From Kangiella sp. TOML190 (GTDB taxonomy: Bacteria > Pseudomonadota > Gammaproteobacteria > Enterobacterales > Kangiellaceae): a stretch of DNA of 64,000 bases. A program made the position numbers and the translations under genes. The first letter of the stretch is position 1. Each line of letters opens with the position of its first letter. The notes beneath the pieces are model-generated. The model saw only the letters and a program-made list of their open reading frames with translations, did not search any database and was not told where the DNA came from. Location of the stretch: NCBI RefSeq assembly GCF_023706045.1, contig NZ_BQYL01000001.1:558001-622000 (forward strand), read 5' to 3'. Positions 3,600 through 64,000 of this stretch are shown here, one piece after another.

Positions 3600-4145
3600 T
3601 CAAGTTAAAACCTTCTCACCTAAAACACCTCTTAATTTTTGCATTGCTCGGGACAAATGAGTTTTCACCGTACCAGTGCTACAGCCCATAATATCCGCCG
3701 TTTCTTTCACATCTGCCTGTTCAATCATGCGCAATAAGAATACTTGCTGCTGCTTCAATGGCAGCTCATTCACAGCCAGCTGTAATTGCTGCATGGATTG
3801 GTTTATGCTCAATTTATTTTCTGGCTCCCAATCTTGGCGATCCGCACTAGCTTCTAGCAATGAATATTCTTGTTCGTTCGAATTCCGATTAAACACTGAG
3901 CCCATGATACTGCGCACTTTTTGCTTGCGATACCAATCGCGGATGCGGCTTTGTAATATCCGATAAAACAAAGGCTTCCATTGCTCACTGGGCTTATTTG
4001 CATACTTAGTCACTAGTTTCATCATACTATCTTGCACTATATCCAGAGCTTCTTCACGCTGCGAAGTCGCAGCATAAGCCATGCGATAGGCCGAAGCTTC
4101 AACGCTCGCTAAAAACCGGTCCAACTGTGCGCGATTCTTCAGCAC
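3600..4145 (-). CDS. ECF-type RNA polymerase sigma factor
   Basis: A 181-residue sigma-70-family extracytoplasmic-function factor. Region 2 is at about 15-85 (AYRMAYAATSQREEALDIVQDSMMKLV, here spread over residues 20-46). Region 4 is at about 120-175, with ELPLKQQQVFLLR and a helix-turn-helix ending GTVKTHLSRAMQKL. There is no region 3, as expected for ECF factors. It starts at GTG 4145 with a TAAGGT ribosome binding site. It heads an operon with a membrane protein, an exported protein and a DUF3106 protein, a layout seen in other Proteobacteria; its signal and regulon are unknown. Confidence 0.9.
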   Translation of the reverse strand: MLKNRAQLDRFLASVEASAYRMAYAATSQREEALDIVQDSMMKLVTKYANKPSEQWKPLFYRILQSRIRDWYRKQKVRSIMGSVFNRNSNEQEYSLLEASADRQDWEPENKLSINQSMQQLQLAVNELPLKQQQVFLLRMIEQADVKETADIMGCSTGTVKTHLSRAMQKLRGVLGEKVLT

Positions 4146-55505: not shown

Positions 55506-56210
55506 ATGGCATACAGCGTATTACTGGTTGAAGATCATGCAGAACTGGCCGCCACCACTGGCGAATACTTAGAAAGCTGCGGTTACATCGTAGACTATGC
55601 CATGGACGGAAAAACTGGGCTACAACTGGCGTTAGCCAATTCCTACGATGCGCTAGTGCTGGATGTGATGCTGCCAGCGATGGATGGCTTTGCCATTTGC
55701 GCTAAAGTTAGAAGTGAGTCCCAATCGGATATTCCTATCTTAATGCTAACCGCGCGCGATCAGCTCGAAGACAAGTTACAGGGCTTTGATGCTGGAGCAG
55801 ATGACTATCTGGTGAAACCTTTTGACTTTGCAGAATTAGATGCTCGTTTGAACGCTATCATCAGACGCTTTAAGGGCGATCTAGAATCAAGCACGCTGAG
55901 CATTCATGATTTGCATTTCGACTTAAAAACTCTAACGGTAACCCGTAATAATCAAACCTTGAAACTTTCTCCAACTGGGCTGCATATCCTCAAACTGCTA
56001 ATGCGTCGCTCTCCTGAGGTGGTATCTAAACAGGAGCTTGAAAAAGAATTATGGGGAGATTTAGTTCCCAACAGCGATGTGTTGAGAAGCCATTTATACA
56101 ATTTACGAAAAGTAATCGATAAGCCTTACGAAGACAAATTACTGCAAACCCTACCGGGGTTAGGCTTGAAAATTATAGCGCCGAAAGCCGCTAGTCAAAA
56201 TTCAGCGTAA
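55506..56210 (+). CDS. OmpR/PhoB-family response regulator
   Basis: 234 residues. Receiver domain (1-118) with acidic pocket Glu9-Asp10, phospho-acceptor Asp53 (VLDVMLPAMDG), Thr82 (LTARD) and Lys104 (LVKPF). The winged-helix DNA-binding domain (about 130-228) includes ILKLLMRRSPEVVSKQELEK (about 159-178) and LRSHLYNLRKVID. The gene's last 20 bases overlap the 3' end of the convergent histidine kinase gene, the likely partner. The DNA target is unknown; the adjacent lipid operon is a candidate (inference). Confidence 0.93.
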   Translation: MAYSVLLVEDHAELAATTGEYLESCGYIVDYAMDGKTGLQLALANSYDALVLDVMLPAMDGFAICAKVRSESQSDIPILMLTARDQLEDKLQGFDAGADDYLVKPFDFAELDARLNAIIRRFKGDLESSTLSIHDLHFDLKTLTVTRNNQTLKLSPTGLHILKLLMRRSPEVVSKQELEKELWGDLVPNSDVLRSHLYNLRKVIDKPYEDKLLQTLPGLGLKIIAPKAASQNSA

Positions 56211-57431
56211 CCTTGGTTCCCTTGGCTAGTTCACTATCAATGGAAATCGTCCAGCCCATTCGCTCACAAATCGTTTTTACGATCGACATCCCTAAGCCGA
56301 ACCCCTTAATTGGCTCATTCTCACGGTTAACCCGATAAAAAGGCTCAAAAACTTTTTCGACATTTTCTTGGCTCATACCGCGACCAGTATCCACCACTTC
56401 GATCGAACCTTCTTTAACTTTGATTAGCACTTTGCCATTTGGTGTATAGTTAATCGCATTGTTCAAAATATTACCAAAGCAACTGATAAACAACTGCTCA
56501 GGAATTTTAATTTGCAGTTTTGCCAGATGCTCAACGGATACTTGAGTGGTGGATGACTCAAACTGCATCCGCGCCTTTTCCAGTTGTTGATCGACCAATT
56601 GATTAATATCGATAGCTTCTTTTGGCGTGCTTATCTGCTGGCTGCGCGATAAAAGTAATAAGGCATCCAGCAGATATTCCATATCCAAAATCACTTTATC
56701 CATTCGGGATAAAACCAATTGGCTTTGCTCGGAAAGCTGCTGCTTCTCAAGCAAAGCTACTGAGCCTTTCATCACCGCTAACGGCGTCCGTAGCTCATGG
56801 CTGGCATATCGAGTGAAATTTTTCTCGCGTGTCACTAATGCTTGCACCTGATCGGCGTAATGATTAAAAGCACCGAGCAATGAGGCTACTTCAGCATCAG
56901 CATTCTGTTCAATTTCAGAAAAGTCCAAGCGCAGATCAGCTGAGGCAGAAACCTTAGCTTCGTCCATCTTTCGCGCTAATTTAACCACTGGCGAAATAGC
57001 GCGCTTAGATAAGATGTAACTAATCCACGCCGGTAAATAAATAATGAGCAAAACAAATGCTAAAGGCGCGATACCAAAATAAAAGGCTAATCTTGACACC
57101 TGACCTTCTTCAAATACTAAATAGAGATACTCATCATCACGTTGCGAAACATGAACCAAGGGTTCTGAATCGCCGATAAGCACACGATGATAACCTACCG
57201 TTAGCTCTTTGAAATGGTTAGGAAGTTTGTTTTTGCTATTCGATTTTTTTAGATAGCCGGTTAAATTTAATGTTTTTGGCAAAGAAAAACTTGCATCTTT
57301 TTGGTAGTGCTGCCAAAAAAATCAGCCTCACCATCGAGCGCTTGTTTGATCAGTACATTTTCAACCACTTTAGCCGCACCATAAACACTTAGCAAAGTGA
57401 CTAAGCTAATGAGGAGCAACTGGATCCCCAT
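56191..57431 (-). CDS. Sensor histidine kinase, frame-interrupted
   Basis: Two-helix membrane sensor kinase. From ATG 57431 (MGIQLLLISLV, helix 1; GTG 57434 also possible) it reads to GEADFF, then the frame breaks. One T is missing from a run at 57315-57321 (A7 on the plus strand); restoring it gives FFWQHYQKDASFSLPKTLNL, a known sensor motif of this kinase type. The rest has helix 2 (about 130-150), a HAMP-like linker, HisKA with ASHELRTPLAVMKG and an ATPase domain (NILNNAINYTPNG, FGLGMSIVK). Total about 413 residues. It starts 48 bases after the second Cfa-like gene, so it is probably transcribed with the lipid operon. Confidence 0.9.
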
Positions 57432-57479
57432 CACTTTAAATAGTTTATAGTGAATTCCTCTACGCTTAGCTATAGTCAG

Positions 57480-58514
57480 TTACCTTTTTGTAAATCGATA
57501 ATGGGCGACCATCCACTCATTACCTTTAGCATAGCCAAATAATTCTGCACATGCCATAAAGAATATGCGCCAGCGCTGAAACCATATATTAGCAAAGTCT
57601 TCGCCGTAGGTGCTTTCAAAGATTGGTATAATTCGGTCTTTATTCTGATCCATATTTTCAAGCCAAGCATTCGATGTTTTTTCGTAATGGCTTCCACTTA
57701 ACAGCCAGCGCTTATCGAGCTGTAATTCGTGCTGAAACAACAAAAAGGTATCTGCCGCTGGCATTTGACCACCACTAAAAAAATAGCGTCCCATCCAATT
57801 ATCATCGCCCTCTTCTTGGTAGGGATACATAAGATAACGATGGCAAAAAATATGTAAAAACACTTTGCCATCAACGTTTAGCCAACCACTGAGTTTATGA
57901 AATAATTCTTGATAGTTCCTAACATGCTCGAACATCTCTATCGATACAATTCGATCATATTTCTTGTCGCTCTCAAAATCATTAATATCTGTGGTTAAAA
58001 TCTGAATATTTTCCAACTGATTTTCGTCAGCCTGTTGCTGTATAAATTTACGCTGAGAGTGGGAGTTGGAAATTGCGGTGATGCGACTATTAGGATATCT
58101 TTCAGCTAAAAACAAGGTCAAAGATCCCCAGCCACAACCCAGCTCCAGTATCTCTTGCCCATCATAAAATTGTCCGCGCTCGCAATACAGGTTGAGCATG
58201 GCAAGCTCTGCTTGGGATAAGTCATCACAGCTATGTGACCAGTAAGCACTGCTGTATTTTAGTTTATCTCCCAACGCATACTGGAAGAACTCTGTAGGCA
58301 ATTCGTAGTGTTGCTGATTGGCTTTATCCGTTTCTATGGCAATTTTACTTTGCTTCAGCTGCTGCCAAAACTCATGATATTGCTCAGATTGCATTTCGCA
58401 ATCGTTTGCGTATTGTTCTTCGAGTCGTTGGCGGCACAGTTTTTTGATGCCAGAGCGTATTAATTGATCCGGAATAAGCCCTTTCTCAATTAATTTTATT
58501 GCTTGCCCAATCAT
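57480..58514 (-). CDS. Cfa-like SAM-dependent methyltransferase (second copy)
   Basis: 344 residues from ATG 58514 (GAGGAG five bases upstream). SAM site ILELGCGWGSLTLFLAE (about 127-143), then VSIEMFEHVRNY and LFAERYPNS-like motifs; it belongs to the cyclopropane-synthase/methyltransferase superfamily. Compared with the other copy in the operon it lacks the N-terminal lipid-binding extension and has the shorter plan seen in coclaurine-methyltransferase-like and UfaM-like proteins. It is likely to act on unsaturated acyl chains in the membrane; the product cannot be told from sequence alone. Confidence 0.82.
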   Translation of the reverse strand: MIGQAIKLIEKGLIPDQLIRSGIKKLCRQRLEEQYANDCEMQSEQYHEFWQQLKQSKIAIETDKANQQHYELPTEFFQYALGDKLKYSSAYWSHSCDDLSQAELAMLNLYCERGQFYDGQEILELGCGWGSLTLFLAERYPNSRITAISNSHSQRKFIQQQADENQLENIQILTTDINDFESDKKYDRIVSIEMFEHVRNYQELFHKLSGWLNVDGKVFLHIFCHRYLMYPYQEEGDDNWMGRYFFSGGQMPAADTFLLFQHELQLDKRWLLSGSHYEKTSNAWLENMDQNKDRIIPIFESTYGEDFANIWFQRWRIFFMACAELFGYAKGNEWMVAHYRFTKR

Positions 58515-58523
58515 AATCACTCC

Positions 58524-59357
58524 TCATTTACGGTTTGGTTTGCCAGGGAAAAAAGCATTAGTACGCTCCTGATAGTCTCGATAAGCCTGCCCTTTACTGC
58601 GAATATTTTGTTGCTCGTTAAATGGAATCCCGGTCACCTTCCACAAAAATAGAAACATCCATAGCGGGAAGCTAGCTATAAACCACCAACTAGTCGTTGC
58701 CAACGCATTCGAGTGCCAAGCTAGTAGAGGATAGCTGCACCAATGTAGCCACTCAAAAAAGTAATTAGGATGTCTAGAATAACGCCATAGGCCATGATCG
58801 CATACCTTAGCCTGACGCTTATGATTCTTTTTGAAATTCAACAACTGCTTATCCGCAATGCTCACCCCAACAAAGCTGACTAGAATCAAACCAATAGCCA
58901 GTATGTCTAAAAGTGTCAGCGTTTCTTTTTGCTGGCTAATAATCAGTGCGGGCAAACTACAGAACCAAGCGAGTAGAGCTTGCAATAGGAAAAATAATAA
59001 AAACTTAACTTGTACGGTTGTTGAAGATGATTGTTGTTGCCAATACTTTCTCAAATAAGCATAGCGACCATCTTCATGATGAGTACTAAACCTGTTGATT
59101 AAATGTAATGCTAAACGTGAATACCAGGCAACGGGAGCCAGGCATAAGGCGACAAGTGTAATGTGATCCAGACTTTGATTATTCCACGCTCTAACAATAT
59201 AGTAGAATCCCAACATTGCTAAGGCTAGCGACCATGCTATATCCACCGGGTCAGCATTTTTATAAACAAGTTGGAATAGCCAAGCGACTAATTGAATTAG
59301 CGCAACCACAACCAGCAAGTTCAGACTCGAGACAATCAGTTCAAGCATAGCGACCAT
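58524..59357 (-). CDS. DUF1295 family membrane protein
   Basis: 277 residues, about 7 hydrophobic helices, of the steroid-5-alpha-reductase-like DUF1295 family. The C-terminal signature is GLWRYSRHPNYFFEWLHWCS (about 191-210), WKVTGIPFNEQQNIRSKG and YRDYQERTNAFFPG. Members are integral reductase-like or isoprenylcysteine-methyltransferase-like enzymes. The start (59357; ATG 59348 also possible) overlaps DUF2878. It is present in the lipid-modification operon of many marine gammaproteobacteria. Confidence 0.88.
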   Translation of the reverse strand: MVAMLELIVSSLNLLVVVALIQLVAWLFQLVYKNADPVDIAWSLALAMLGFYYIVRAWNNQSLDHITLVALCLAPVAWYSRLALHLINRFSTHHEDGRYAYLRKYWQQQSSSTTVQVKFLLFFLLQALLAWFCSLPALIISQQKETLTLLDILAIGLILVSFVGVSIADKQLLNFKKNHKRQAKVCDHGLWRYSRHPNYFFEWLHWCSYPLLAWHSNALATTSWWFIASFPLWMFLFLWKVTGIPFNEQQNIRSKGQAYRDYQERTNAFFPGKPNRK

Positions 59358-59898
59358 GCTTATCTGTTAATTGCCGATCAGCGGCTTTCGGTTTTAACTG
59401 CAAGCAGATCAGCAGCGCCAAAAACCATGCAACGACCAGCAATAGTAGCGTAATGGGCTTATTGGTAATAGCTAGAGCACCTATCCGCTCTGCTGCAAGA
59501 TAAGACAATGGGCCACCAATAGCACCGAAAACCAGTGCTAGTTTAGGCTTACGATAAATCCATGCCATAGAGTGATTAAGGGTAAGAGCAAAAGTAACCC
59601 ACAAGATAAGAATCCAATTAGGAGCCGTATTGAACCAACTAATGTGACTTTGATACTGTATCAACCCTGTCAGTGACCAAATCGAATCCAAAACAAAGCC
59701 CAAAGGTAACAGCACCAATATATTCAGACAGTCCATTTTTACACGGTTGGTTGGCCATAACTGCCAAACTAGCAGTATCAAAAATAATCCATAGGCATAA
59801 TACAGATTCTGGTTAGTCGCGCCAAAAGCACACGCCAGCCATATAGCTTGGAACAGGACAAAATTAATGGCAGGCTTTACTGCGTCAAACCTAACCAT
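59341..59898 (-). CDS. DUF2878 family membrane protein
   Basis: 185 residues with about six hydrophobic helices; characteristic parts are NFVLFQAIWLACAFGA, LDSIWSLTGLIQY, LNHSMAW and GAIGGPLSYLAAERIGAL (about 125-142). DUF2878 proteins regularly accompany Cfa, DUF1365 and FAD-oxidoreductase genes; the function is unknown. The gene overlaps both neighbours (22 and 17 bases), so it is translationally coupled. Confidence 0.85.
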   Translation of the reverse strand: MVRFDAVKPAINFVLFQAIWLACAFGATNQNLYYAYGLFLILLVWQLWPTNRVKMDCLNILVLLPLGFVLDSIWSLTGLIQYQSHISWFNTAPNWILILWVTFALTLNHSMAWIYRKPKLALVFGAIGGPLSYLAAERIGALAITNKPITLLLLVVAWFLALLICLQLKPKAADRQLTDKHGRYA

Positions 59899-61148
59899 TG
59901 CTTTCTCATATTTTTGGGCTTGGCAAACAATAGGTGAGTATCGCTTATGGCCTTTTCAAGAAAACCACCTTCACAATAACACAGATAAAATTCCCACATC
60001 CGAATGAAACTTTCGTTAAAACCAAGTTCTCTTACAGCATCAATATTCTGTAAGAATCGAATACGCCAATCACGCAAGGTTTTAGCATAACTTTCGCCAA
60101 AATCTTCTAGATTAATTAGACGTAACTGGCTGTTTTTTGCAGCAGAATGGGTAATCGCTGATACACAAGGAATAAAACTACCGGGGAAAATATAGCGCTT
60201 AATAAAATCAACCGACTTTAAAGCCTTTTCATAACGAACATCTTCAATGGTGATGGCCTGTATCAGCGCTAGGCCATCCTCTTTTAATAGATCATTGCAC
60301 TGCGTTATATATGTGTTTAAATAGTGGTGTCCTACCGCCTCAATCATTTCTATAGACACCAGCTTGTCGTATTGCCCCCGCAAATTTCGGTAGTCTTGTT
60401 TTAATACCGTAATTTTTTGAGACAAGCCTTCCGCTTTAACTCGCTGCTTGGCATATTGGTACTGTTGCTCTGAAATGGTAGTGGTAGTTATTTTGCAGCC
60501 ATAATGTTTTGCCGCATAAATAGCAAACCCACCCCAACCAGTACCAATTTCTATTACTTCATCACAAGCTTGCAAATCAAGCTTCTCACAAATGGTTTTT
60601 AACTTAAGTTCCGATGCTTGCTGTAAATTTGCACAACTGGGGGTGTATATCGCTGAGGAGTACATCAGATAATCATCTAAAAATAGCTCAAAAAAATCAT
60701 TGCCTAAATCGTAATGTGCAGCAATATTTTTTCGGCTTCCAGCCACATTGTTTTTATTGAATAGGTGCCACAGTTTTAAGATTTGATTTTTTAGCCAAGC
60801 CGTTCCTGATTCCATATCATCTAACAAGTTTCGGTTTCGCACAAACAAACGAATTAAGTCCGTGAGACTATCCACTTTCCATTCTTGCTTCATATAGGAT
60901 TCAGCAACACCAATGCTACCCTGCAAAGCTACTTGCTGGTAAAAATCTAAAGTATCTACCCGAATATTAACCTGAATATCAGAAGATTGGTTTCCACATT
61001 CAATTACTCCAAGAGGATCACTAACAACTAAGCGTCCATCGTTAATCTTAGATAAATGCTGCAGAACTTTTCTACGGATCCATAATTTACTACGACTAGC
61101 ACCTACGCTGGCTTTCAACTTATTTGATGCGGTAGAAGCATCATCCAT
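59877..61148 (-). CDS. Cyclopropane-fatty-acyl-phospholipid synthase family protein
   Basis: 423 residues from ATG 61148, chosen for AGGAGA six bases upstream (a longer in-frame start is rejected). N-terminal lipid-binding domain (about 30-120, with [16 protein letters not shown]), then Cfa catalytic domain: [20 protein letters not shown] (about 155-174), SAM site [20 protein letters not shown] (about 207-226), [23 protein letters not shown]. It uses S-adenosylmethionine on phospholipid acyl double bonds. It overlaps the DUF1365 gene. Confidence 0.92.
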
Positions 61149-61929
61149 CGTTATTCTCCTGATTTTCAAGTTTATGCTTTACATCGCTATATTTTGGATG
61201 ACTAACAAACGGTACTCTTTTCAACCACAGCTTCGCCGCCTGCCAATATATGCCATAAATCATTTTCAAGGGCTGCAAAGGACTACCGAGTATCACCTTA
61301 CGAATATTACTCGACGTTAAGGGTAAGAAATTCGCTGTGAAGGTAGCGTCAAAAATTTTATTTTGATTGTTTTGCTGTTTCACCACCATATGGATCCTGA
61401 GCTCCTCACCAACAAAGTGAAAACTCCACTGATAATCCATATCCATATTGATAAAAGGCGAAATGTGAAATGCTTTCTGAAAATTGAAACGATGATTTTT
61501 AAGGTCTTCCTGACATTCTAGAACGTAAGCATGCCTTTCTCCCCAAGGCGTGTTGGTAATTTCGGCCACGATATACTTCATCTTGTTTTTATCTACACAA
61601 AAATAGAAACAGACGGAATTAAAATTAAAACCTAAATACCTTAGGTGTGATAAAAGGAATACTTTACCGAAAAAATCTTTGCCCGTTTCTTTCTTTATGG
61701 TTTTGATAATCGATGCTTTGTTACTTAATCCACCCTGTTGGTGAAAATCCTTTTCTCGAAAAGAGACCAGATTCCAACGCTCTAAAGACCAAAGCTTACT
61801 GCTATCAAATTGCTCATCCAGCCGATCCAAGTCTAATAACGACCAATACATTCGATAATCAAAACTATGCTCTTTAGGTCGATAGCGGTGATGGCGAATA
61901 GTGCCGACATAGAACCCTGACTCAAGCAT
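61141..61929 (-). CDS. DUF1365 family protein
   Basis: 262 residues from ATG 61929, with GGAG eight bases upstream; a Met at 61947 lacks a site. Typical DUF1365 parts: [20 protein letters not shown] (about 6-25), [32 protein letters not shown] and [15 protein letters not shown]. The family is of unknown function and is almost always next to an FAD amine-oxidase-like gene and a Cfa gene. It overlaps both here. Confidence 0.9.
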
Positions 61930-63190
61930 TAAAAGACTCCGAGTCATAACAATTAATATCTTTTAACAATGCCTTTGCCGCTTCTATCCCACTGAGCGCG
62001 CCATCTTCATGAAAACCCCATCCCCAATAAGCACCACAATAATAGCTATGTTGCCCACCTTGTATTAAATGCTTTTGCTTCTGTGCTTCGATAGCTGCTT
62101 GATTGTAAATAGGATGATGGTAAATAATTTCTTTTAGTATTTTCCCTTTATTCACTTTATCTTGCATATTTAAGCTAACAATTATCGGAGTCTGAGTGTT
62201 AAGCGATTGCAGTAGATTCATATAGTAGCTTACTCGACAGGCTTTACTTGTGCGCTCATCGTTGAGCATGTTCCAACTCGCCCAAGCCTTTTTATTCTTA
62301 GGTAAGACCTTAGTATCGGTATGCAGCTGCATGGTATTTTCTTGATAACCGATATTACCCAGTAGCCACTTTTCATCATGAGTTGGATCAGCGATCATTT
62401 TCAAAGTCTGATCGCTATGGCTCGCAAAAATAACCTTATCAAAATCATAAGCATCTGAATTAGTAATAATTCTGACCCCAGCATGATGCCTTTCTACTGA
62501 GCTAATAGCTGAATTTAATTTCAGCTTGATTGAGATACTCTCAAGAATTGAGTTCAAGTAGGTTTCTGAGCCTCCTTGAATAGTCTTCCACACTGGGCGG
62601 TTAAAGGCTTGCAGCATTCTATGGTTATTCATAAAAGCGACCAAATAACTCGCTGGAAACTGCATTATAGCTGAGCTATCGCCAGACCAAAGTGCGCTGG
62701 CCATTGGTATTAGGTGTTCATCAATGAAATATTGACTGTAGCGCTTCTTTTTTAGATATTCACCTAAATTTATTTGCATATCAGAGTCTAATAACTCCTT
62801 AGCCTCTCGATAAAAACGAAAAATATCCCAAATCATTCGGTAGAACTTGGGGCTAATCAAATTCTTTCTCTGACAAAAAAGTTGATCCAACGAACTTGCA
62901 TTATATTCAAGTCCATTCATGCGATTAGTTACCGCAAAGCTCATATCGCTATCCTGATAAGCCACTTGATACTTTTTTAGCAAAGTAAAGAAGGTCGGAT
63001 AGTTTTCCGGATTAAACACAATGAACCCTGTGTCTACCTTCAAAGTTTTATCATCAACGAAAATAGTTTGAGTGTCTGCGTGACCGCCCACCTTTTCGTT
63101 CTTTTCAAAAATCGTCACATCGCAGTGTTGATAGAGCTTTTCTGCCGCAGCGATACCGGATATACCGCTGCCAATAATTGCCACCTTCAT
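61922..63190 (-). CDS. FAD-dependent oxidoreductase, amine-oxidase/desaturase type
   Basis: 422 residues with an N-terminal dinucleotide-binding site [20 protein letters not shown] (about 3-22), the GG-motif [10 protein letters not shown] and [18 protein letters not shown]. It resembles phytoene-desaturase/amine-oxidase-like proteins; in related clusters such proteins are thought to modify fatty acyl chains. Its ATG overlaps the desaturase stop by four bases, so the enzymes are coupled. Confidence 0.88.
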
Positions 63191-64000
63191 GAGCTCATGG
63201 CCTTATTTATCTGCTCTGCATTAGGAGCTTTTAGATCATGAACTAGCCCGAAAGTTTTTAACAAGTAAAGACCATAATAGCTCAGATCTAATTCCCACCA
63301 GTAAACCCCCTGCTTAGCAGAATAAGGAAAGCGATGATGATTATTATGCCAACCCTCTCCTAGGGTCAGGATTGCCAATAGCCAATTGTTGCGACTATTA
63401 TCATTGGTATCAAAACGCTTAGTTCCCCAGCGATGCGCCACGGAATTTATAGAAAAAGTAATATGTGCCAACACTACAGTGCTAATAAAATAACCCCATA
63501 TTAGAATTTGCCATTTGCTCGCGCCCAACTGCGGGAAATAGACTTCGACGATAATACCCACCGAAAAAATCAAAGCCGCGAAAAGAATCGGCGGTATTAT
63601 GTCGTACCGATCAAGCCAGACTAATTCTCTATACCGCGCTAAATCTTTAACCCGCTCAAGATTGGTTGGAAAATTCTTTTTATTTAAAAACCAGAACATA
63701 TGACTCTTCCAAAAACCTTGTGCAGGACTGTGTAGATCCGCATCTTTGTCTGAGTGAATATGATGATGGCGATGATGCGCAGCCCACCATAAAGGCCCTC
63801 GCTGAGTCGCGGTGGTACCAATAAAGGCAAAAATAAATTGAGTTACACGGCCCACTCGAAAAGTTTTATGAGAAAAATACCGGTGATAAAAAGCAGTAAT
63901 CGCAAACATTCTGATTAAATAACTGATTGCGAAAATGATCACAGCTATACTGCTTACTCCTACCCAAATTACGGACAGGCAAGCTAAATGTAGAAAAATA
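63187..64000 (-). CDS. Acyl-CoA/fatty-acid delta-9-type desaturase, partial at right edge
   Basis: Membrane di-iron desaturase that introduces a cis double bond into saturated acyl chains. The three histidine boxes are HRYFSH, HRHHH and HNNHH. The frame has no stop up to the window edge and reads FLHLACLSVIWVGVSSIAV before the GTG at 63942; this matches the usual N-terminal helix, so the gene continues beyond 64000. It is the first gene seen of the lipid operon and would supply unsaturated chains for the Cfa-like methyltransferases. Confidence 0.9.
   Translation of the reverse strand, partial: IFLHLACLSVIWVGVSSIAVIIFAISYLIRMFAITAFYHRYFSHKTFRVGRVTQFIFAFIGTTATQRGPLWWAAHHRHHHIHSDKDADLHSPAQGFWKSHMFWFLNKKNFPTNLERVKDLARYRELVWLDRYDIIPPILFAALIFSVGIIVEVYFPQLGASKWQILIWGYFISTVVLAHITFSINSVAHRWGTKRFDTNDNSRNNWLLAILTLGEGWHNNHHRFPYSAKQGVYWWELDLSYYGLYLLKTFGLVHDLKAPNAEQINKAMSS

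Follow-up and report, generated by a model that had tools for sequence, protein, structure and literature searches.

A probable furan-fatty-acid operon of Kangiella linked to a two-component system of its own

Which lipid is made by a tightly packed set of seven enzyme genes in Kangiella sp. TOML190, and which regulator governs them? The genes lie at the right end of the 64,000-nucleotide stretch analysed here (the window, C1:558001-622000 of a single-contig 2.45-Mb genome, G000). They encode a desaturase (Des), an FAD enzyme, a DUF1365 protein, a first Cfa-like methyltransferase (Cfa1), a DUF2878 protein, a DUF1295 protein and a second Cfa-like methyltransferase (Cfa2), and are followed by a sensor kinase gene and a convergent response regulator gene. 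Judging from the sequence, we consider it likely that the operon makes furan fatty acids and is under the control of a dedicated two-component system (TCS). Pathways of this kind are known and the cluster has been partly described; what is new is the apparently dedicated TCS with its putative operator and the pairing of a FufM-type gene with DUF1295. Our search of the open-access literature found neither a TCS connected with furan lipids or with the cluster nor the FufM-type/DUF1295 pairing, and that of the Kangiella fatty-acid literature gave one sentence on iso-branched chains and nothing further.

A furan pathway has been described in Rhodobacter sphaeroides and Rhodopseudomonas palustris, where UfaM methylates cis-vaccenate, UfaD desaturates the methylated product, UfaO (a DUF1365 protein) uses oxygen derived from O2 to form the furan and FufM adds a methyl group to it (PMC7380195, accessible part of the text). 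The consecutive FAD, DUF1365 and CMAS genes of Kangiella have the domains and the order described for UfaD-UfaO-UfaM, and by this match the FAD protein, the DUF1365 protein and Cfa1 would be of the UfaD, UfaO and UfaM types, respectively. The original prediction gave DUF1365 no settled role, a statement that the UfaO report makes outdated; its proposal that the enzymes work one after another on the same acyl chain is probably right, by analogy with the same pathway. The Kangiella operon also differs from that pathway as described: it includes a desaturase, DUF2878 and DUF1295 besides the divergent methyltransferase that is the FufM candidate, and it has the linked TCS in place of sigmaE-ChrR. 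Genes of the UfaD, UfaO and UfaM types were found together in 13/13 furan loci of the same order or family, which had been chosen by their UfaO.

The two methyltransferases are different enzymes, as had been predicted. They share 27% identity over 275 aligned positions and are the only strong CMAS genes of the genome (four weaker matches resemble other methyltransferases). Cfa1 is nearest to E. coli Cfa, while the Cfa2 profile matches a coclaurine N-methyltransferase over its full length (Table 1), compared with 4e-30 for the best CFA synthase. Cfa2 is probably of the FufM type, which carries out the second furan methylation; this holds by analogy, because the link to FufM runs through Arabidopsis AT4G33110, which we take to be coclaurine-N-methyltransferase-like. 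FufM is 37.87% identical to AT4G33110 (PMC10940516, available part).

DUF1295 accompanies Cfa2 in wide samples. In the class, Cfa2-type genes were found in 34/274 genomes (own genome counted), and 34 loci were fetched besides our own, from 33 genomes, several of the stretches being short. These 34 loci contained DUF1295 in 26 cases, DUF2878 in 25, UfaD in 23, Cfa1 in 21, UfaO in 20 and the desaturase in 16. In the phylum sample (Cfa2-type genes in 34/398 genomes), 28 further loci with flanks of about 1.5 kb were examined, and DUF1295 was beside Cfa2 in 20 of them. The same neighbour lay within 1.5 kb of Cfa2 in 67 of the 80 named loci (the best 80 among the matches listed, which do not include R. 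sphaeroides and R. palustris). DUF1295 was found in 0/13 furan loci without Cfa2 from the same order or family. In Chlamydomonas, the singlet-oxygen induction of CFA, DUF1365 and DUF1295 genes requires SAK1, according to the accessible part of PMC4067076.

Gene order, domains and conservation, together with a repeat whose occurrence follows the linked regulator and kinase, lead us to infer the following course of enzyme steps and regulator action. The desaturase would put a double bond into a membrane acyl chain, Cfa1 would methylate the chain, the UfaD-type enzyme would yield a methylated diene and the UfaO-type protein would insert O2-derived oxygen, closing the furan ring. With a second methyl added to the ring by Cfa2, the product would be a dimethyl furan chain able to scavenge reactive oxygen; DUF1295 would act with the Cfa2 step or on its products, and DUF2878 would have a membrane role. 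The kinase would phosphorylate the regulator, which would bind two YGTGAA half-sites 11 bp apart in a PhoB-box-like arrangement with the -10 hexamer 10 bp further on, and would activate the desaturase operon, probably together with the RudS-photolyase genes next to it. A second FA_desaturase gene is found at G000 C1:2181520-2182194 (-), so that the desaturase of the operon need not be the sole source of double bonds.

The domains of the pair are those of an OmpR/PhoB-type TCS, Response_reg and Trans_reg_C in the regulator and HisKA and HATPase_c in the kinase. Both genes belong to a conserved block made up of the regulator, the convergent kinase, Cfa2, DUF1295, DUF2878, Cfa1, UfaO, UfaD, Des, an NTF2-like gene, a chalcone-isomerase-like (CHI) gene, a photolyase and RudS. 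The block was complete in 18 of the 19 loci of the same genus, the other one (L053) being cut by a contig end; the co-occurrence in relatives that the original prediction called for is therefore found. In three genomes (G008, G016 and G017; loci L058, L066 and L067) the block stands beside what we read from the sequence as an nhaA-like gene, and yhbY, rlmE and ftsH are absent from the stretch. There too the block keeps its regulator and kinase, which places the pair in two genomic contexts. Linked TCS homologues were also found in Acinetobacter, HTCC5015 and others, with 13 kinase and 12 regulator matches in the 80 named loci. We called a locus TCS-linked when its kinase or regulator profile reached 200 bits, with thresholds chosen by hand. 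For the regulator the closest scores on either side were 156 and 271, for the kinase 67 and 235; at L113, L157 and L183 the kinase alone was seen. The predicted coupling of the kinase to the operon is supported by the conserved block, by its two contexts and by the repeat described next; the membrane state that the kinase was proposed to sense is a possible signal.

Aligning the spacer between Des and the NTF2-like gene of 20 Kangiella revealed a direct repeat, YGTGAA-N5-YGTGAA, located upstream of Des in 20/20 and upstream of RudS in 16/20. The whole 2.45-Mb genome has two exact matches, one before the operon and one before RudS. When all 5-mer dyads upstream of Des were counted, GTGAA-N6-GTGAA came first in 19/19 congeners and was present in 1/56 TCS-free loci, that one being the contig-cut Kangiella L053, which sat in both groups of the count and is TCS-free only through its contig end. 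Over 146 loci, the exact repeat was found in 32/36 with a linked TCS and in 3/110 without, or in 30/34 and 3/109 after removing three near-copies (L175, L180 and L243, of L051, L115 and L122). Gap variants and the reversed pattern occurred in 0 to 1 of the 34 TCS loci, and mononucleotide shuffles gave 0.4 loci of 34 per pass. The three positives without a TCS (L053, L120 and L142) have stretches that are short or end near the cluster. At L142, L120 and L144, where Cfa2 heads its own operon, the repeat is found 90 to 135 bases upstream of that gene.

The position of the repeat also fits a promoter. A TANNNT starts 10 bp past it in 27/54 sites, compared with 0 to 5 at 15 other offsets, and NANNNT is found at offset 10 in 38/54 (the 54 sites come from 34 loci chosen for carrying a site). 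PhoB boxes, as we understand them, consist of two direct repeats 11 bp apart with a -10 hexamer 10 bp downstream, and are bound by an OmpR/PhoB-type regulator. Kangiella shares this layout, which predicts activation through the putative operator, and differs in its YGTGAA half-site and in its regulator, which scored 150.6 bits against NCBIfam PhoB, below the cut-off of 296.2. A variant, [CG]GTGA-N6-[CG]GTGAA, picked after viewing the loci, gave 14 sites in 67 TCS-free named loci (1.13 Mb), 9 of them within 300 bp upstream of Des; L179, L182, L189, L194 and L203 are among these loci. Several Xanthomonadales genomes have strong unlinked regulator homologues, and this family of regulators may control more clusters than those with a linked pair.

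The original prediction suggested that an rpoE/chrR pair might lie past the right edge of the window. We found none among the open reading frames (ORFs) of the next 10 kb, and TIGR02451 (ChrR) had no match anywhere in this genome, with a positive Caulobacter control. ChrR over the cut-off was found in 0/26 genomes of the TCS group (our own, 19 congeners, one of them contig-cut before the TCS, and 6 others; five had weak matches below the cut-off) compared with 12/13 furan genomes of the same order or family without a TCS. Across the 146 loci, ChrR was present at 18 and the TCS at 36, with no overlap, and neither at 92. In a midpoint-rooted UfaD tree of 57 rows, Kangiella groups with TCS-bearing taxa in a fork (99/94) of 19 rows, 3 of which showed no TCS in the fetched stretch, and it lies away from the other genera of its own family; one TCS row, L127, falls elsewhere. 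This suggests that the block reached Kangiella as a unit together with the regulator. As part of the reading that we favour, the TCS would take the place of sigmaE-ChrR or of LitR/PhrR-type regulators in this lineage.

Several observations weigh against the reading that we favour, and some of them bear on the rival view that regulator and kinase are mere neighbours of an operon obeying another regulator, e.g., another sigma factor or a MerR protein. The genome does have 12 Sigma70_r2 matches over the cut-off and three MerR_1 matches, none of the latter within 300 kb of the block; the pair is convergently transcribed, and the kinase gene is broken in this genome by a frame change in a T-run near 57320 that leaves the HisKA/HATPase part in the other frame. 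The kinase frame is open in 18/18 congener loci having the kinase, so intact copies exist; the frameshift here may be an assembly error, a case of phase variation or a loss. Xanthomonadales genomes that lack a linked pair contain unlinked homologues of the regulator scoring up to 230-273 bits, on a par with the linked regulator of A. pittii (239 bits, next paralogue 157). Absence of ChrR fails as a mark of the TCS group, for ChrR over the cut-off is also missing from 25 of the 28 other class genomes that have Cfa2 and no linked TCS in the fetched stretch (3/28 have it), and other regulators must therefore exist. As for the repeat, the reversed pattern likewise has two matches in the genome, so that its position and not the number of matches is the evidence; L127 and L210 have a linked TCS and one-mismatch sites only, and L177 and L183, also with a linked TCS, showed no repeat near the operon. 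At RudS the -10-like box (mostly AATAAT) abuts the start codon, so that the transcript there may be leaderless or the site may serve repression. Finally, the ChrR system of Stenotrophomonas maltophilia barely affected singlet-oxygen tolerance (PMC11832516, accessible part), so that a simple singlet-oxygen story is not favoured. Against chance neighbourhood stand the movement of the pair with the block between two contexts, its recurrence beside the block in Acinetobacter, HTCC5015 and others, and the repeat that tracks it; we set that view aside as improbable.

The chemistry has its own alternatives. The operon could make cyclopropane fatty acids, the remaining genes being accessory: both methyltransferases have the CMAS domain and the nearest solved relative of Cfa1 is E. 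coli Cfa. However, UfaD- and UfaO-type genes share the operon, Cfa2 is nearer to coclaurine N-methyltransferase, and Cfa1 deviates from E. coli Cfa at C139 and H266, two bicarbonate ligands of that enzyme. The window protein has S172 and Q304 at these positions, and its family (122 rows, the three near-copies excluded) has Q for H266 in 122/122 and S or A for C139 in 114/122. The same cluster has been read as cyclopropane synthesis in S. maltophilia (PMC11832516, accessible part), an explanation that we hold to be very unlikely for Kangiella and have rejected as the principal one. It is rather unlikely, though less so, that Cfa2 and DUF1295 make up a lipid module of their own, e.g., methylation plus reduction to a methyl-branched chain, sharing the operon with the furan genes. 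In the class sample 11/34 Cfa2 loci had neither UfaD nor UfaO in the fetched stretch (6 of these 11 span only 4 to 13 kb, by a contig end or a shorter request), and because 9 of the 11 retain DUF1295 the pair may be active apart from furan genes too; DUF1295 also has reductase-like relatives. On the other side, UfaD is present in 23/34 class loci and 67/80 named loci, and FufM works on the furan, with no significant activity toward 18:1, as far as the accessible part of PMC7380195 tells, which counts if Cfa2 is of the FufM type. DUF1295 itself may be a methyltransferase or other enzyme of the isoprenylcysteine-methyltransferase (ICMT) fold and no reductase, a possibility that we take seriously without preferring it. 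Its profile matches steroid 5-alpha-reductase 7c83 (1.3e-5) and ICMT 4a2n (4.9e-5) nearly equally, which weakens any certainty that it is a reductase, whereas Steroid_dh is above its cut-off and NCBIfam isopcys_mtase below (23.5, cut-off 160). We regard as a long shot the fuller proposal that DUF1295 is an NAD(P)H-dependent enone reductase acting on the conjugated ene-dione left after the methylated furan chain quenches singlet oxygen, within a unit of Kangiella (there including photolyase and RudS), Acinetobacter and kin under a dedicated PhoB-like TCS; if true, the furan fat would be a serviced oxygen trap and not a one-way sacrifice.

The furan-fatty-acid operon with its own TCS that we favour can be compared with related clusters, one of which is published with the same gene order and makes the original prediction outdated in this respect; the statements that follow hold for the accessible parts of the sources. 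In S. maltophilia, the nine-gene cluster smlt2375-smlt2367 (Cfa9) is strongly up in a chrR mutant and sigmaEc-dependent, and its deletion in that mutant brought menadione tolerance and ceftazidime susceptibility nearly back to wild type (PMC11832516). The gene order is the same (desaturase, FAD oxidoreductase, hypothetical protein, CfaS2, two inner-membrane proteins, CfaS1), and we found Des-UfaD-UfaO-Cfa1-DUF2878-DUF1295-Cfa2 at the S. pavanii locus L197. The S. maltophilia cluster differs by its sigmaEc-ChrR control, an extra periplasmic protein and a lipocalin, and it was interpreted as cyclopropane synthesis, the word furan being absent from the accessible text (PMC11832516); our comparison suggests that this Stenotrophomonas cluster makes furan lipids. 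The LitR/PhrR phrB-ufaM clusters of Pseudomonas and Vibrio have in common UfaM/Cfa, the FAD protein, DUF2878, a photolyase and light or stress induction, and differ by MerR-type control, with a FufM-type gene, DUF1295 and a linked TCS not named there (PMC9758184, PMC5241685, PMC12971978). Related clusters are light-induced in Pseudomonas (PMC9758184), a Cfa gene of one is induced by blue light in Vibrio (PMC5241685), a DUF2878 gene was assigned to the PhrR regulon (PMC12971978), and in Aeromonas a related cluster is lowered with riboflavin changes (PMC10012899).

The seven packed genes and the kinase gene agree in coordinates and domains with what had been described, all Pfam names of the enzyme genes being above the gathering cut-offs (Table 1). 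The desaturase starts 89 bases beyond the window edge (63187..64000 inside). With longest-ORF starts, the six junctions between enzyme genes are five overlaps of 4 to 29 bases and one 3-base gap. The spacing of 48 bases given for the kinase after Cfa2 stands if the ATG at 57431 is used (there is a GTG at 57434). The kinase frame is open from the Cfa2 stop onward, where most kinase genes of the congeners start, and the ORFs of kinase and regulator overlap by 20 bases. The DUF2878 profile had no match in the PDB. To the right of the desaturase are the divergent SnoaL/NTF2-like and CHI genes and then, on the operon strand, the photolyase and a 2-thiouracil-desulfurase/DUF1722 protein (L002:11361-13778), an architecture named RudS (PMC11417400, accessible part). 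Far from the operon, a 181-aa ORF at window positions 3600-4145 (-) has a Sigma70_r2 match of 25.5 bits (cut-off 24) at 3918-4091 and is a possible sigma-factor gene.

Table 1. Genes of the putative furan-fatty-acid operon and the linked two-component system, in window positions (published sources as far as accessible).
Feature	Position	Strand	Evidence
Acyl desaturase (SCD-like), first operon gene	63187..64089	-	PF00487 6.8e-25; top solved structure acyl-CoA desaturase 4ymk 4.1e-31
FAD amine-oxidase-like protein, UfaD type	61922..63190	-	PF01593 2.8e-19; top solved structure LkcE 4.7e-38; DUF1365 next, as in ufaD-ufaO (PMC7380195)
DUF1365 protein, UfaO type	61141..61947	-	PF07103 1.2e-74; DUF1365 carried by UfaO (PMC7380195)
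Cfa1, Cfa-like methyltransferase, UfaM type	59877..61169	-	PF02353 2e-77; nearest solved structure E. coli Cfa 6bqc
DUF2878 membrane-type protein	59341..59898	-	PF11086 1.4e-34
DUF1295 protein, steroid-5-alpha-reductase-like family	58524..59357	-	PF06966 1.3e-58; PF02544 Steroid_dh 38.9 bits (cut-off 22.6)
Cfa2, coclaurine-N-methyltransferase-like, FufM-type candidate	57480..58520	-	6gkv 2.8e-84, residues 5-345
Sensor kinase gene, N-terminal piece, in a different frame from the remainder	57321..57434	-	Sequence; congener frame check
Sensor kinase gene, remaining piece with HisKA and HATPase_c	56191..57320	-	Open frame of 376 aa; PF00512 5.8e-12 and PF02518 3.6e-23 on ORF 56191-57282
OmpR/PhoB-type response regulator, convergent with kinase	55506..56210	+	PF00072 3.3e-27; PF00486 1.5e-14

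Furan fatty acids are antioxidant membrane lipids, and their reported control in bacteria is by sigmaE-ChrR or by light-responsive MerR-type regulators; a self-contained TCS would be a third way. The predicted small regulon, with two putative operator sites in the genome, lets the inducing signal be sought directly, and through its pairing with the FufM-type gene DUF1295, a domain of unknown function, can be assigned a place in lipid chemistry that is open to test.

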